The notes under the pieces are model-generated. The model was not told the origin of the DNA, searched no databases, and saw only the letters and a program-made list of their open reading frames with translations. A stretch of DNA of 64,000 bases from Kiritimatiellia bacterium. GTDB taxonomy: Bacteria; Verrucomicrobiota; Kiritimatiellia; WLWN01. This document shows positions 2,740-35,774 of this stretch, piece after piece. Both the position numbers and the translations under genes were made by a program. The stretch is from assembly GCA_012103575.1 (NCBI GenBank), contig WLWN01000001.1, forward strand, positions 2,670,538 to 2,734,537. Reading direction: 5' to 3'. Positions within the stretch are counted from its first letter, which is position 1, and every line of letters starts with the position of its first letter.

Positions 2740-3591
2740 ATGTTATTCAATTATAGTATCGCCAACAAGCGAAAAACACGTAATATGATGAAGGCTATCT
2801 TTTTAGTTGGTTCAGATAGCAAAGCACCGAATAGAGAATGTATGATCATAAAAAAAAGTAGACGTTTAATTCGAGACTTAGCCTATAAGATGGGCTATGA
2901 GATCACCCCTAAGGTCCTCACAGATGGGAACGATTACCATGAGATCAAACCTACCTCGACTTATTCTCCATGGTATAAAGATAAATTATTTATTGAAACG
3001 TACGAAAAGATTAAACCATACACGTTAGTTGATGTCTATCGTTACTATGAGTTATGGAGCCTTGTTCAGCAATCAAGTAAGCTAAGTGGGGGCATTATTG
3101 AAATTGGTGTGTTTAGGGGTGGGTCGGGTGCCTTAATAGCAACATAAGCTAATCTTTGTCGGATTCCTGATGTTGTCTATTTATGTGATACGTTTGAAGG
3201 GATGGTCAAAGCGGGGAGTGAGGATTCTACGTTCAAAGGTGATGAACTTTCTGGAACATCAGAAGACCTCGTTCGCTCTTTAGTGTATAAGGACATGGGG
3301 CTTAAAAATGTCGAAGTTCTGAAAGGGATTTTCCCCGAGCAGACCGCTCATCATATCCAAACAAAGGAGTTTAGGTTTTGTCATATTGATGTAGATGTCT
3401 ACGAATCTGCTAAAGGAATTATTGACTGGACATGGGACAAGATGGTTGTAGGAGGTATTGTTCTCTATGATGATTATGGGTTCCTAACGTGTGATGGGAT
3501 CCGGAAATTTGTCGACCAGCAACGTGAGTTGAGTGATCGGATCTTTATTCACAATCTAAATGGGCACGCTGTGTTTGTTAAGACAAGATAG
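2740..3591 (+). pseudogene. TylF/MycF-like SAM-dependent O-methyltransferase, in-frame stop
   Basis: A class I methyltransferase of the macrocin O-methyltransferase (TylF) type. The SAM-binding motif IIEIGVFRGGSG is followed by the acidic CDTFEGM, and HIDVDVYES and VLYDDYG supply the metal-binding acidic residues typical of this family. The frame is interrupted by TAA at 3145-3147; both halves stay in the same frame, so a single substitution of a sense codon explains it. The first 30 or so codons are not family-like, and internal ATGs at 2785 or 2842 are alternative starts. It sits upstream of a second methyltransferase on the same strand, consistent with a surface-glycan or O-antigen modification locus. 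Probably inactive. Confidence 0.75.
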
Positions 3592-3615: not shown

Positions 3616-4770
3616 ATGAGGAAAGGGATAGAAATAAATGAGCCAGATGGATTTGAGAATGTCCCATGTGTTCTGTGCGGACAAGAAAATTCACAGCTGT
3701 TGGAGACTAAAGGGCGAGACGGCTTGTCTACCTATGTAAGTATATGCCTAAATGACGGGTTGGTTTATCTGAATCCACGATGGCCAAAAGAGCGGTATGC
3801 CTCTTTTTATAAAGAAGCGTATTACAGATGCCATCGGCCTGAAGCTTTGGGCGCAAAAACTGAAAAACTTAGATATGGACCCGTTAAAGAAATGTGGGAT
3901 AGATTAAGTGAGTTTAACGGGATTCAGCCGATAAATGCCGTGTTGGATATTGGCGCAGGTATGGGGTGGAGCTTGGACTTTATTAGAGAAAGGACCTCTT
4001 CTTCTGTTTTATTGGCGGCTATTGAACCGTCTGCCCAGTGCGCGCAACACCTTGCCAACCATCTAAATATAAAGGTCCTATCCAATGATGTTGATTCTGA
4101 GTGGCACTATGCGGAGGAAGGAAAATATGATCTGATCATTATGAGGCATGTCCTTGAGCACTTCCCTAATCCCGTTGAAGCACTTAAAAAGGTCCGTTAT
4201 GCATTGAAGGAAAAAGGGATTGTTTACATGGCTGTACCGAACATGATGGCTCCAAATGAACCACTCTGAACATTATTTTTTAGAGTGGTCCATACCTATT
4301 ACTTTTCCAAGGAAACATTGTCTTTTTCGGCCTGCTTGGCGGGGCTTGAAGCGAAGGTGATGGATGAATCTAAGTCCGAACTTTGGGGCATTTTTGGGAA
4401 ATCTGAATCTGAGCGCTCCTTAAACTTTTCTTCTGTATACGACAAACAACTTAGAATAATAAGAAGAAAGCAATGTATTGAAAGATTTCTGGGCCCCCTT
4501 CTTTTTTTGACACGAAAAGCAGGAAAATTAATTCCTTTAAAGCTCCTGGATCCGTCAGTTAAACGTGGGATTTCTGTGCGAATGCTTTGGAGGCAAAAGG
4601 TTGCAAAAAAACGCAGGCGCACCCGCTGGGTGCGTCGAGGCTTTTTTGTAATTCCTTTTGGCCCAAATGGTTCGTGCAGAAAACCGCGTTTAACTGACGG
4701 ATCCAGGAAGCTCAAAGAAAAGTGCCCCTCTTGGATTAAAGATTGGTTATATGCCTATTTGGGAAGCTAA
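3616..4770 (+). pseudogene. Class I methyltransferase with N-terminal Cys motif, stop codon plus MITE insertion
   Basis: The N-terminus has a CVLCGQ zinc-ribbon-like motif, then a Rossmann methyltransferase core (VLDIGAGMGWSLDFI, about residues 112-125; MRHVLEHFPNP about 177-187) as in methyltransferases of sugar and polyketide pathways. TGA at 4267-4269 interrupts the frame; the context would suit Trp. After it the same frame continues with FFRVVHTYYFS and the rest of the C-terminal domain. A 163-bp MITE with its 5-bp duplication then adds exactly 168 bp, so the frame runs through the insert and resumes to the stop at 4770. The TGA makes this a probable pseudogene; the MITE alone would have been an in-frame insertion of 56 codons. 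Confidence 0.75.
4545..4707 (+). mobile_element. 163-bp palindromic MITE, copy 1 (inside methyltransferase)
   Basis: Ends are CCTGGATCCGTCAGTTAAAC and its reverse complement. Flanking 5-bp direct repeat AAGCT at 4540-4544 and 4708-4712. The whole element is an imperfect palindrome. The centre has GCGCACCC/GGGTGCGT as stem with an A run on one side and a T run on the other, so it can form a terminator hairpin on either strand. One frame on each strand is open from end to end. Confidence 0.9.
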
Positions 4771-8414: not shown

Positions 8415-10072
8415 CCTGAATCCGTCAGATAAAATCTGACGATTTTTCATTACCTGTTGGGCTAAAGCGGGGAGCATACCCGTATTCAAACAAACAACCC
8501 CACCCCAGCAGGTGTGTATATGAAACAATATAAAATAAAGACTGGCAAGGGCGAACTCAACAGCACAAGCGGAAATCATCTTTGCGGCCTGCTGCTTGAG
8601 GATCATGCTCAACAGATTCTTCCCTCCAATTTTCAACCACGCCGCTCCGATGCGATCTCTGATCGGGAGATCCTCCTTACCCAGATCGGCTTACTTTGCA
8701 ACGGTCGAACCGATTTCAATGATATCGACCTGTACCGGGGTGATGAGATTTTTATGAATGCCTTTGGACTTAAAAAGGGGAGTTAAAAAGGTAGCCTCTG
8801 AGCCGGTGTTCCGATGTCGTTCCGACGACCTGCCCCCACCCAGAACCCATGTGGGGCTACGCAAACTCAACACCGAACTTCTTTCCTCGGGCCCCTTTGG
8901 CTAGGTAGATGTCGAAGGGCTTGATCTTGTTCCCGTCGATATCGATGTGAGCCCTTTGGATCACTCAGGCTCTTCGAAAGAAGGCGTTTCCTATACCTAT
9001 AAGGGCCATGATGGTTACGCCCCGATATTTGCCTATGTGGGCACTCAAGGCCACATGCTTGAGTGCGAACTTCGACCCGGTAAACAACATTGTCAGTCGG
9101 GAACGACCGCGTTTATTGCCCGCAGCGTTGAAACGCTCCAAACCCTGGGCCTAGGTGGAAAATGTTTGCTTCGGCTTGATAGTGGCAACGCTGCGGCCGA
9201 TAACTTCGACGCTTTTGGGGATCATTATTTTATCGTAAAGCGAAATCCTCGCCGCGAATGTCCTGAACAAATGCTGGCCCTTGCACGCCGAGTTGGAGAC
9301 AAACAAGACAGTCATGAAGGCAAGAACGTTTACACAGGCTTTTTCGATCATTTCCACCCCGGTGGTGACCAAAACCGCCCTTGTGTCCCGGTGGCCTTCG
9401 AAGTGATTGAACGCACCATCGATATCGATGGTCAGAAACTTCTGGTTCCTAAACTTGAGGTGAACACCTGGTGGACGAACCTCTCTTGTCGTGCCAAGAC
9501 GGTGCTAGATCTCTATCATGGACATGGCCCCAGCGAGCAGTACCACAGTGAACTCAAAAGCGATCTTGATGTTGAGCGATTGCCTTCGGGGAGACTCTGT
9601 GCCAATAAGATTATTCTGTTATGCGCCATGGTGGCCTTCAACCTATTGCGCGGTCTTGGCCAAGAGGTCATCAAACGGGCTGGGCTTGCCCCGCAGAAAA
9701 TCAACATCCCGCGCTGGCGAATCAAAACGGTTCTCAAAAATATCGTTTATTGCGCGGTTCGATTGGTCCGCCACGCCGGACGAATTGAACTTCACTTTGG
9801 CAAGCGTTGTCGCTGGTTTGAAGTGATACAAGACATTGCCCATTCCTTCGCATAGCCCTCCGTGCACCTTTAACAATACTCTAAGGCGACTGCCCAAGGA
9901 GGCTTACGCCCCAAAATGGCCAAATCAGAGTGAATCTAACCTGTACGCTCAAAAAATTCATCAGGATGATACTTGCCGGTCCCAATCCGCCCAAAAGCGA
10001 GCATCTCAAGGAAAAAGTTTTCAACTTTTGAGCCCCAAAACGCCTTCCGAAGCGATAGCTGACGGATTCAGG
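8415..10072 (+). mobile_element. IS1380-family element, copy A (1658 bp)
   Basis: Left end CCTGAATCCGTCAGATAAAA at 8415 and right end the complement of CCTGAATCCGTCAGCTATCG at 10072. The flanks CTATA and AACAA do not match, so this copy has lost its target duplication. The outer 14 bases differ at one position from the ends of the 163-bp MITE. Confidence 0.85.
8520..9855 (+). pseudogene. IS1380-family transposase (copy A), frameshift and in-frame stop
   Basis: Starts at the ATG at 8520 (MKQYKIKTGKGEL). The N-terminal part ends in NGRTDFNDIDLYRGDEIF. At about 8770-8790 a 13-bp repeat of TTAAAAAGG-type sequence shifts the frame. The protein continues as VASEPVFRCR up to a TAG at 8902-8904 in the motif GPFG-stop-VDVEGLD, where Lys or a similar residue is expected. 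From 8905 the DDE part is open to 9855 (PLDHSGSSKEGVSYTYKGHD, RLDSGNAAADNFD, EQYHSELKSDLDVERLPSG). Copy B at 27809-29135 carries both lesions, so they predate the duplication. Confidence 0.85.
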
Positions 10073-27591: not shown

Positions 27592-29240
27592 CTTGAATCC
27601 GTCAGCTATCGCTTCGGAAGGCGTTTTGGGGCTCAAAGGTTGAAAATTTTTTCCTTGAGATGCTCGCTTTTAGGCGGATTGGGACCGGCAAGTATCACCC
27701 TGATGAATTTTTTGAGCGTACAGGTCAGATTCACTCTGATTTGGCCATTTTGGGGCGTAGGCCTCCTTGGGCAGTCGCCTTAGAGTATTGTTAAAGGTGC
27801 ACGGAGGGCTATGCGAAGGAATGGGCAATATCTTATATCACTTCAGACCAGCGACAACGCTTGCCAAAGTGAAGTTCAATTCGTCCGGCGTGGCGGACCA
27901 ATCGAACCGCGCAATAAACGATATTTTTGAGAACCGTTTTGATTCGCCAGCACGGGATGTTGATTTTCTGCGGGGCAAGCCCAGCCCGTTTGATGACCTC
28001 TTGGCCAAGACCGCGCAATAGGTTGAAGGCCACCATGGCGCATAACAGAATAATCTTATTGGCACAGAGTCTCCCCGAAGACAATCGCTCAACATCAAGA
28101 TCGCTTTTGAGTTCACTGTGGTACTGCTCGCTGGGGCCATGTCCATGATAGAGATCTAGCACCGTCTTGGCACAACAAGAGAGGTCCGTCCACCAGGTGT
28201 TTACCTCAAGTTTAGGAACCAGAAGTTTCTGACCATCGATATCGATGGTGCGTTCAATCACTTCGAAGGCCACCGGGACACAAGGGCGGTTTTGGTCACC
28301 ACCGGGATGGAAATGATCGAAAAAGCCTGCGTAAACGTTCTTGCCTTCACGACTGTCTTGTTTGTCTCCAACTCGGCGTGCAAGGGCCAGCATTTGTTTA
28401 GGACATTCGCGGCGAGGATTTCGCTTTACGATAAAATAATGATCCCCAAAAGCGTCGAAGTTATCGGCCGCAGCGTTGCCACTATCAAGCCGAAGCAAAC
28501 ATTTTCCACCCAGGCCCAGGGTTTGGAGCGTTTCAACGCTGCGGGCAATAAACGCGGTCGTTCCCGACTGACAATGTTGTTTACTGGGTCGAAGTTCGCA
28601 CTCAAGTATGTGGCCTTGAGTGCCCACATAGGCAAATATCGGGGCGTAGCCCTTCTAGGTGTAGGAAACGCCTTCTTTCGAAGAGCCTGAGTGATCCAAA
28701 GGGCTCACATCGATATCGACGGGAACAAGATCAAGCCCTTCGACATCTACCTAGCCAAAGGGGCCCGAGGAAAGAAGTTCGGTGTTGAGTTTGCGTAGCC
28801 CCACATGGGTTCTGGCTGGGGGCAGGTCGTCGAAACGACGTCGGAACACCAGCTCAGAGGCTACCTTTTTAACTCCCCTTTTTAAGTCCAAAGGCATTCG
28901 TAAAAATCTCATCACCCCGGTACAGGTCGATATCATTGAAATCGGTTCGACCGTTGCAAAGTAAGCCGATCTGGGTAAGGAGGATCTCCCGATCAGAGAT
29001 CGCATCGGAGCGGCGTGGTTAAAAATTGGAGGGAAGAATCCGTTGAGCATGATCCTCAAGCAGCAGGCCGCAAAGATGGTTTCCGCTTGTGCTGTTGAGT
29101 TCGCCCTTGCCAGTCTTTATTTTATATTGTTTCATATACACACTTGTTGGGGTGGGGTTGTTTGTTTGAATACGGGTATGCTCCCCGCTTTAGCCCAACA
29201 GGTAATGAAAAATCGTCAGATTTTATCTGACGGATTCAGG
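27592..29240 (-). mobile_element. IS1380-family element, copy B (1649 bp)
   Basis: Flanked by a perfect 5-bp duplication ATTAT (27587-27591 and 29241-29245). Ends CTTGAATCCGTCAG (one change from CCTG) and, on the other side, CCTGAATCCGTCAG. The duplication length equals that of the 163-bp MITE. Confidence 0.9.
27809..29135 (-). pseudogene. IS1380-family transposase (copy B), several lesions
   Basis: The same protein as copy A, starting at the ATG at 29135. It shares with copy A the 13-bp insertion frameshift after DEIF and the TAG in GPFG-stop-VDVEGLD. In addition it has a small deletion with a stop where copy A reads YTYKGHDGYAP (near 28650), and a TAA 9 codons before the normal end (after SEVI). 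The remainder (SGNAAADNFD, EQYHSELKSDLDVERL) is close to copy A. Inactive. Confidence 0.85.
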
Positions 29241-33126: not shown

Positions 33127-33160
33127 CCTGGATCCGTCCATTAGACGCGGTTTTCTGCAC
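33127..33160 (-). repeat. Truncated end of the 163-bp MITE
   Basis: CCTGGATCCGTC-ATTAGACGCG followed by GTTTTCTGCAC matches the first 34 bases of the MITE (orientation as copies 3 and 5) with small changes, then stops matching. A degraded sixth copy without its other end. Confidence 0.7.
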
Positions 33161-33250
33161 GTTTCGTATATTCTAAGGATTTTTAACCTGAACACTAAAA
33201 ATGGTTTGGTCCTGTCCCATATCTTCTGAATAAAAGAACCTGCAGCTGAG

Positions 33251-34463
33251 AATTGTAATATTAAATGCCCAAAAGAAGATATTGTAAAACAGGAGTGTTC
33301 CATGCCGAAATCTTCTAGATTTGAAAACTCGACAGAAGACAAAAAAAGGAGAAAGACATGGAACAAATCAAGAGTAGTATTCATCCCCGAAAAGGCAAGC
33401 ATTTGACACAGAAAGAACGGATCATGATTGAAACAATGCTCAAAAACCCAGGACGTCCTTTGGAGATAGCCAGTATCTGGGAAGGCATCGTCGAACCATA
33501 GAGCGCGAAATTAAACGTGGGGAGGTAGAGCATTTCGATACAGAGCCGCGAAAGAAGAAAGCATACAGCAGTGATCGAGCCCAGGAACTTCATGATCTAA
33601 ATGCGACGGCCAAGGGACCTGAGCTTAAGCTTGGAAAGCATCATGAAACGGCTGTGTTTATCAGCGAGCACATTCTTGTTCACAAACGCTCACCCGATGT
33701 GGTTGCTCCTTTGCTTAAACAAGAGCAGAGACCTGCAGCGGTGAGTACAAAAACGCTGTATACCTATATTGACCAAGGTCTCATCCCGGGGGTGAGCAAC
33801 GAGTCCCTATGGGAAAAACGAAAACGGATAAAACGAAAAAGACGTGCTATTAAGCGGGTTAAAAAGCAACATGCCCGAAGGACCAGTATCGAAAAACGAC
33901 CTAAGACCGTAGAAAAACGCGAGGAATTTGGGCACTGGGAATTGGATTTGATCGTCGGCGGAAAAGGAACTTCAAAACCGGTTTTAATGACGTTAGTAGA
34001 AAGAAAGACCCGAATGCTAAGGGTGAGAAAACTTTCGGATAAAACACAGGCATCGGTTCTGCAGGCCCTCAAAGCGATCGAAAGATCGATGGGAGTTGGC
34101 CCATTCAGATCGATGTTCAAGTCGATTACAGCCGATAACGGGAGCGAGTTTCTCGACGTGGAGCAGATGGAGCGTTCCGGATTTAGCAAAAAGAGACGTG
34201 TTAAACTCTATTATGCTCACCCGTATTCTTCCTGGGAACGAGGCTCCAACGAAAATGCCAACCGTATGGTTCGTCGTTTTGTCGCCAAAGGAGACAACAT
34301 CGGAAAATATACCATCGACCGTATTGGTGAGATTGAAAAGTGGATTAACAACTATCCTCGCAAGATCCTAGAATACAAACCCGCACAGGAGTGTTTCGAT
34401 TTGGAGATCGCCGCATGAACAGAAGCTCTCAGGTCCATTTTTTGCGGCATTTAATTTTACAAT
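33251..34463 (+). mobile_element. IS30-family element, copy 2 (different subgroup)
   Basis: Imperfect inverted repeats AATTGTAATATTAAATGCCC at 33251 and, inward from 34463, ATTGTAAAATTAAATGCCGC. It contains a full-length IS30-type transposase with one frame break. It abuts the IS1380 copy C gene. Confidence 0.7.
33358..34418 (+). pseudogene. IS30-family transposase (copy 2), one frameshift
   Basis: ATG at 33358 with GGAGAAAG upstream. LTQKERIMIETMLKNPGRP is followed by a frame change near 33460 and then YLGRHRRTIEREIKRGE, the helix-turn-helix. The DDE domain is open: FGHWELDLIVGG (Asp), SITADNGSEFLD (Asp), SSWERGSNENANRMVR (Glu). It ends at 34418 with NNYPRKILEYKPAQECF. Only the single indel separates it from a complete transposase. 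Confidence 0.8.
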
Positions 34464-34477
34464 CCACCCCCTTTTTT

Positions 34478-35774
34478 CTTCCATCCAAAACGCCGAGTTG
34501 AAACCGATTTTTCAGGCGGTGATTTAAGTTCAGATGGAGGCTTGGTTTTGCTCAGCGAACTCGACAGCCGTCTCAAACTGATCGAAGGCTTTGAGCGCTG
34601 GATTCCTGACCCTCGCGATCCCGCCAAAATCAAACATCCTCAAGTTGATCTCCTGCGCCAACGGATCTTCCAAATTTGCGCCGGATATGAAGATGCCAAT
34701 GATTGCGATCATCTAGGTGAAAATCCTATGTTCAAGACCGCCTGTCACCGATTGCCTCAAAGCGATGAGGCCTTAGGCAGCCAACCGACAATGACTCGCC
34801 TAGAGAATCGGGTCGATGCTTCGGCGGTGAAAACGATGCAACGTTTTTTTATGGACGGTTTTGTCGCCCAGTTTGAGACGCCCCCTCAAGACATGGTCTT
34901 GGATGTTGACGGGGTTGCAGACCCGACCCATGGCCAGCAAAGAGCTGTCTCTTTATCATGGCTACTATCGACAGCATATGTATCATCCGGTTCTCATTAG
35001 TCATGCCCAAAGCAAGTTTCCTCTGGCCCTGTAACTCCGTGCGGGAAACACCCACGCGGGAAAAGAAATCAAGGCCTTGCTTGGTTAGATCTTCTGGCGC
35101 CTTCGGCGATCGTTTCCCAAAACGAATATTATTTTGCGTGGGGATGCGGGGTTGAGTCTACCGGAAATTATCCAGGTATGCGAAAGAAGTGGTGTCGATT
35201 ATGTTTTAGGGTATAGCTGCAACCCCGTTGTGCAAAAAAAAGCGGCCTTCCTGATGGATTTAGCCCGTCTGGATTTAGAGCGAACCGGCCAGAAGGCCCG
35301 CCTGTTTGATGATGTCTATTACGCGGCAGGGTCATGGGAGGGCCCTCGTCGGTTGGTTCTTAAAGCTGAACAATGGCCTCAAGGACCGAATCTTCGTTGT
35401 CTTCTTACAAACCGGTTCGATCCTCCACGGGAACTCTACGAGAAGGTTTACGTACAACGCACCGAAGATTCCGAAAATCTGATCAAAGATCTCAAGTTGG
35501 ATATAAAGGCCGATCGCCTCAGTTGCCATGCCTTTGTCGCCAATCAATCTCGTCTCTACTTAGACCAGATCCGCTTGATCCTCATGCAAGGGTTGAGACG
35601 CTTGGCTCAGGGGACTGGGCCAAGGCCCGAAGTTCAACGCTACGGTTCAAGCTATTGAAGCAGGCGGTACGGGTTCGGAAATCGGCCCGTCGAATCTGGA
35701 TTCAGTTCGGCTCTGGGAGTCTGATCAAGGACTTATTTGCTCATGTGAGAAACGAACTGGCCTACATCACCTAA
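34478..35774 (+). pseudogene. IS1380-family transposase, copy C (divergent), several frameshifts
   Basis: A different IS1380 subgroup from copies A and B: RRVETDFSGGDLSSDGGLVL, HPQVDLLRQRIFQICAGYED, DMVLDVDGVADPTHGQQ with the first catalytic Asp. A break near 34935 leads to GYYRQHMYHPVLISHAQSKF. Another leads to ILRGDAGLSLPEII (second Asp) and QRTEDSENLIKDLKLD (Glu region), and a last frame change near 35625 to the C-terminus at 35774. The left end is lost or covered by IS30 copy 2. Confidence 0.75.

Follow-up and report, generated by a model that had tools for sequence, protein, structure and literature searches.

The window analysed here, a stretch of 64,000 nucleotides from a Kiritimatiellia bacterium, carries a short palindromic MITE that lies in frame in a methyltransferase gene, naturally raising the question of whether its open frame is kept by selection or is an accident of sequence and phase. 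The first-pass annotation had proposed an insertion that keeps a reading frame open in the manner of the Rickettsia palindromic elements (RPEs). The element occupies positions 4545..4707 on the plus strand, where both ends could be located, and is flanked by the 5-bp target site duplication AAGCT, with its left copy at 4540..4544 and its right copy at 4708..4712. A perfect 21-bp terminal inverted repeat, CCTGGATCCGTCAGTTAAACG, forms the left end (4545..4565, plus strand), and the same 21 bases recur on the minus strand at the right end (4687..4707). The 163 bp make up a nearly complete palindrome whose RNA is predicted to form a single extended hairpin (-113.6 kcal/mol, z -15.6), and the window copy is identical to the majority consensus built from the 136 genomic copies of 163 bp. 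The element is short, bounded by terminal inverted repeats and too small for a transposase, as MITEs are. At its centre (4613..4645), a GC-rich stem that has T runs on either strand resembles a bidirectional intrinsic terminator in a consensus scan, with one match on the plus and two on the minus strand (three in the region against 1.6 expected). The arithmetic of the first-pass annotation was right, since 163 bp and the 5-bp duplication add 168 bp, or 56 codons, and so was its count of frames: of the six frames, only offset 1 on either strand passes through the whole element without a stop.

An open frame of this kind is not surprising in itself. Among random 163-mers generated with the dinucleotide transitions of the MITE, 53% had at least one open plus-strand frame and 40% were open on both strands, and for random palindromes built from the MITE arm these values were 69% and 67%. 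Because a palindrome that is open on one strand is nearly forced to be open on the other, the two open frames amount to one observation, and the open frame looks like no more than chance gives, in agreement with the earlier caution that a random 54-codon open frame is not very rare. Each insertion would add 168 bp and so always keep the downstream phase, and with one of three frames per strand stop-free, presumably by accident, about a third of genic insertions would be read through. The right phase in the earlier claim corresponds to two of the six combinations of orientation and phase (expected open fraction 1/3).

A search with the first 30 bases, allowing at most 3 mismatches, found 168 copies in the 3.14-Mb genome. 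From 158 listed copy sites, each taken with 2.5 kb of flank on either side, we obtained 149 full-length copies, and the tests below cover these 149 of the 168. Exactly 163 bp long are 136 of the 149, most copies differ from the consensus by 0-3 changes, and an exact 5-bp duplication, as the longest one, flanks 104 of the 149. No copy was found in 56 genomes of the same class, a search for the exact 30-base pattern in genome contigs gave no match, and an Rfam search returned a chance-level match only. The roughly 170 young, near-identical copies point to recent amplification of a non-autonomous MITE, which belongs to the explanation that we consider very probable as a whole. We also saw symmetrised hairpins, with both ends of the 'left' type, and an array in which several copies alternate in orientation (G000:C1:2283958-2284519, 717422-717585, 1061952-1062115 and 2200179-2200341).

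Selection for the open frame should be visible in how these copies lie in genes. We called a copy genic when the empty site, after its flanks were rejoined, fell within an ORF of 120 aa or more and had 15 or more codons to each side. The results showed that 34 of the 149 copies (23%) are genic, against about 67% of sites drawn at random from these stretches; a preference for AT-rich targets and purging from genes may both add to this avoidance. The frame runs open through the element in 5 of the 34 genic copies, with 11.3 expected for uniform sites or 11.9 for target-weighted ones; the probability of at least 5 open copies of 34 is 0.996-0.998, and that of at most 5 is 0.007-0.013. Five closed copies (L042, L064, L073, L119 and L153) represent a single insertion in a transposase-like gene that was multiplied together with the gene, and counting them once left 30 independent insertions, 5 of them open with 10 expected (P(less) 0.035, P(greater) 0.99). 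At sites at least 60 codons from both ORF ends, 2 of the 12 independent insertions are open. There is clearly no excess of open phases, and the low open count is too weak to claim selection against them. The ORF filter should itself favour open cases, since genes with closed-phase insertions decay and drop out, and some N-terminal insertions may precede the true start, as for L127, whose kinase domain starts past the insertion. Among the recognisable genes that closed copies disrupt are those for an O-methyltransferase, an FtsX-like permease and a topoisomerase VI A-like protein. Given the avoidance of genes and the closed phase of most genic copies, we see no sign of selection for the open frame. 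The genome-wide screen of the idea that the element keeps frames open therefore had two sides: in-frame copies do occur elsewhere, in an intact gene for an EndoQ-UvrD fusion and in a LicD/GT25 gene that is open throughout (below), and genic copies are mostly closed, 29 of 34 or 25 of 30 independent ones, which goes against that reading.

We also asked whether the encoded peptide bears a trace of constraint, using the 111 distinct substitutions in 127 copies near the consensus. In the open plus-strand frame they comprise 34 synonymous, 71 missense and 4 nonsense changes, against 30.5, 73.1 and 6.4 expected, and in the open minus-strand frame 37, 70 and 2, against 34.3, 72.5 and 3.2 expected; the other four frames give a similar pattern. 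No purifying selection was detectable in either open frame with this set of substitutions and copies. G:C to A:T transitions dominate the changes, accounting for 63 of the 111.

Five genic insertions nonetheless keep the frame open, and the clearest lies in a gene for an endonuclease Q-UvrD-type helicase fusion (L100/L259; L259:453-3719) of about 1,090 residues, which is open from start to stop and holds the exact 56-residue MITE insert. Seven homologues, 1,030-1,156 aa long, could be aligned across both flanks of the insert; none has it, and one carries a short unrelated stretch at this place. The insert falls between residues that match PcrA 379 and 555, a region that we take to be the accessory 2B part. 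Relatives of the fusion over the same length occur in many phyla. A second copy (L055) lies in frame in a LicD and glycosyltransferase 25 (GT25) protein that is open throughout. Two more lie in genes that are open apart from the element, one for an IS110 transposase, 31 codons from its end (L108), the other an ORF with no Pfam match (L106), and the last is at the end of a dGTPase-like gene (HD_assoc domain) that has an in-frame stop upstream (L101). In-frame insertion into an intact gene is thus a fact, at no more than the rate that luck of phase provides. For a few genes, and the EndoQ-UvrD helicase in particular, the MITE peptide might even be translated and tolerated, in that helicase at a place between helicase motifs in a 2B-like region; from the reading frames and alignments we regard this as possible and rather doubtful. 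The central hairpin, if active, would end transcription within the element, which is one more ground for doubting that such inserts are often made. If the peptide is made, the EndoQ-UvrD insert would be a present-day protein segment born from a non-coding MITE.

The spread of the copies can be related to other elements of the same genome. At 8415..10072 (plus strand) the window contains an IS1380-family insertion sequence of 1658 bp with the related ends CCTGAATCCGTCAG and a broken transposase frame (NF033539, E 7e-69), one of numerous 1.66-kb copies with these ends in the genome; one copy has the end CCTGGATCCGTCAG, identical to that of the MITE, and CCTGRATCCGTCAG is common to the MITE and the 1.66-kb elements. 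The family assignment is based on PF13701, with 136 matches, and NF033539. A second, decayed IS1380-family element (33127..35774, plus strand; NF033539, E 9e-29 and 2e-30 on two fragments) is broken by an insertion carrying an integrase-core (rve) transposase, and its left end matches the right end of the MITE over 35 bases at 91%, making it the closest candidate parent. A search for an intact or functional parent transposase with ends identical to those of the MITE found just decayed or differently ended ones. The IS1380 elements (8415-10072 and 27592-29240 in the window; L157-L165) mostly share their transposase defects, a frame-shifting 13-base insertion and a TAG, although the insertion is absent in L157 and L158 and the TAG is TAC in L163; it seems that a defective version was multiplied, presumably in trans. 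IS1380 elements make duplications of 4-5 bp, consistent with the 5 bp at the MITE, and the ends and duplications of the family are known in general, for example from ISEcp1. Spread of the MITE in trans most likely depended on a transposase of the IS1380 family that recognises the CCTGGATCCGTCAG end and would have duplicated a 5-bp AT-rich target at each site; in a closed phase, or with an active central hairpin, the MITE would then end the protein or the transcript. All this fits best with a non-autonomous MITE of the IS1380 family that has a bidirectional terminator-like hairpin at its centre, lies mostly between genes and mostly breaks those it enters.

The hairpin also suggests that the MITE could be kept as a mobile transcription terminator, its stem and T runs ending transcripts at intergenic sites, and the terminator-like signals on both strands and the intergenic bias of the copies are in keeping with such a role. 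However, a consensus match is no evidence of activity, and gaps between convergent genes, where a terminator would be most useful, hold 13% of the intergenic copies against 22% of random intergenic sites, while copies are if anything commoner between divergent genes (34% against 25%). The gene-orientation test thus gave no support to a selected terminator role, which we consider very improbable.

In the window itself, the methyltransferase does not provide the example of a preserved protein for which it had been taken. The SAM-dependent methyltransferase with its N-terminal and catalytic part (3616..4269, plus strand; PF13489, E 9e-16) is cut short by a TGA in its frame (4267-4269), which precedes the MITE by 275 bp, so the frame said to run through 3616-4770 without a stop is in fact split into ORFs 3616-4269 and 4285-4770. 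After the TGA the frame is open for 161 codons from a GTG (4285..4770, plus strand) and carries the MITE in frame, and production of this part would need a restart at the GTG or read-through of the stop. We read 3616-4770 as one broken gene and not as two genes, because collinearity with homologues from the class goes on, weakly, past the TGA. As it stands in the assembly, the premature TGA would already truncate the methyltransferase upstream of the MITE, which makes this gene unsuitable as an example. A second methyltransferase-like gene, identified by look, lies just upstream at 2740-3591 and has an in-frame TAA at 3145-3147. With the TGA of the host and this similar lesion next to it, the window MITE sits in decaying sequence, where the notion of a protein kept whole is inapplicable.

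One could still suppose that a full-length methyltransferase with the MITE insert is made, through read-through of the stop or because an error in the assembly produced the TGA. The long open stretch past the TGA and its recognisable collinearity with homologues fit this view, and frequent read-through of in-frame stops inside conserved bacterial genes has been argued for (PMC7918605). Against it, decay is common in this genome, as the TAA of the upstream neighbour and the in-frame stop of the dGTPase-like gene show, and we find a full-length product very improbable. A recoded stop codon was rejected as well: the neighbouring broken frames do not all end in the same stop codon, and no single recoding accounts for them. 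We are therefore left with the explanation that we hold with high confidence, namely that a copy of the MITE lies in an already stopped gene and that its open frame is accidental and unselected; that the gene decayed before the MITE arrived is the order we infer.

Hardly tenable is the reading in which the MITE works like an RPE, its open frame kept by selection for life inside genes and adding a tolerated peptide: one open frame per strand, a length with duplication divisible by three and five open genic insertions, at least two of them in otherwise open genes with conserved domains, speak for it, but open insertions are below chance (5/34 against 11.3), about one in two sequences of this kind would be expected to have an open frame, neither open frame has a synonymous excess, and MITE copies are depleted in ORFs, whereas nearly half of the RPEs of Rickettsia lie in genes, as in-frame translational fusions (PMC10969869).

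The likeness to RPEs is that both are palindromic (about 150 bp for the RPE, 163 bp for the MITE) and that translation can run in frame through a copy within a gene; unlike RPEs, the MITE is 23% genic, in frame in fewer genic copies than chance predicts, and free of constraint on its peptide, and the analogy drawn with RPEs as a class is unsupported. Apparently, a palindromic element easily looks 'frame-friendly', as a length in multiples of three together with one open frame often arises by chance, and selection can be told from luck only by counting across all copies; the present genome, in which about 170 young copies are near-identical and their phase is known, offers a clean negative control for RPE-like claims. 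A literature search on IS1380-derived MITEs gave nothing specific. Such MITEs are matched by the present one in being short and non-coding, with terminal inverted repeats starting CCT, a 5-bp AT-rich duplication, many near-identical copies, and IS1380-family elements nearby in the genome whose ends are related; they differ from it in that its parent with identical ends was not found intact and its body is almost all palindromic, with a terminator-like core. Also comparable are QMITE1 and QMITE2 of Coxiella, which overlap ORFs, sometimes in frame in mid-ORF (QMITE2, for example), in a pseudogene-rich genome (PMC5896051), as the MITE does here, although sizes differ and the QMITE duplications are 2-3 or 7-11 nt. 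In-frame MITE insertions are thus already known elsewhere, and the element described here is a new family of MITE.
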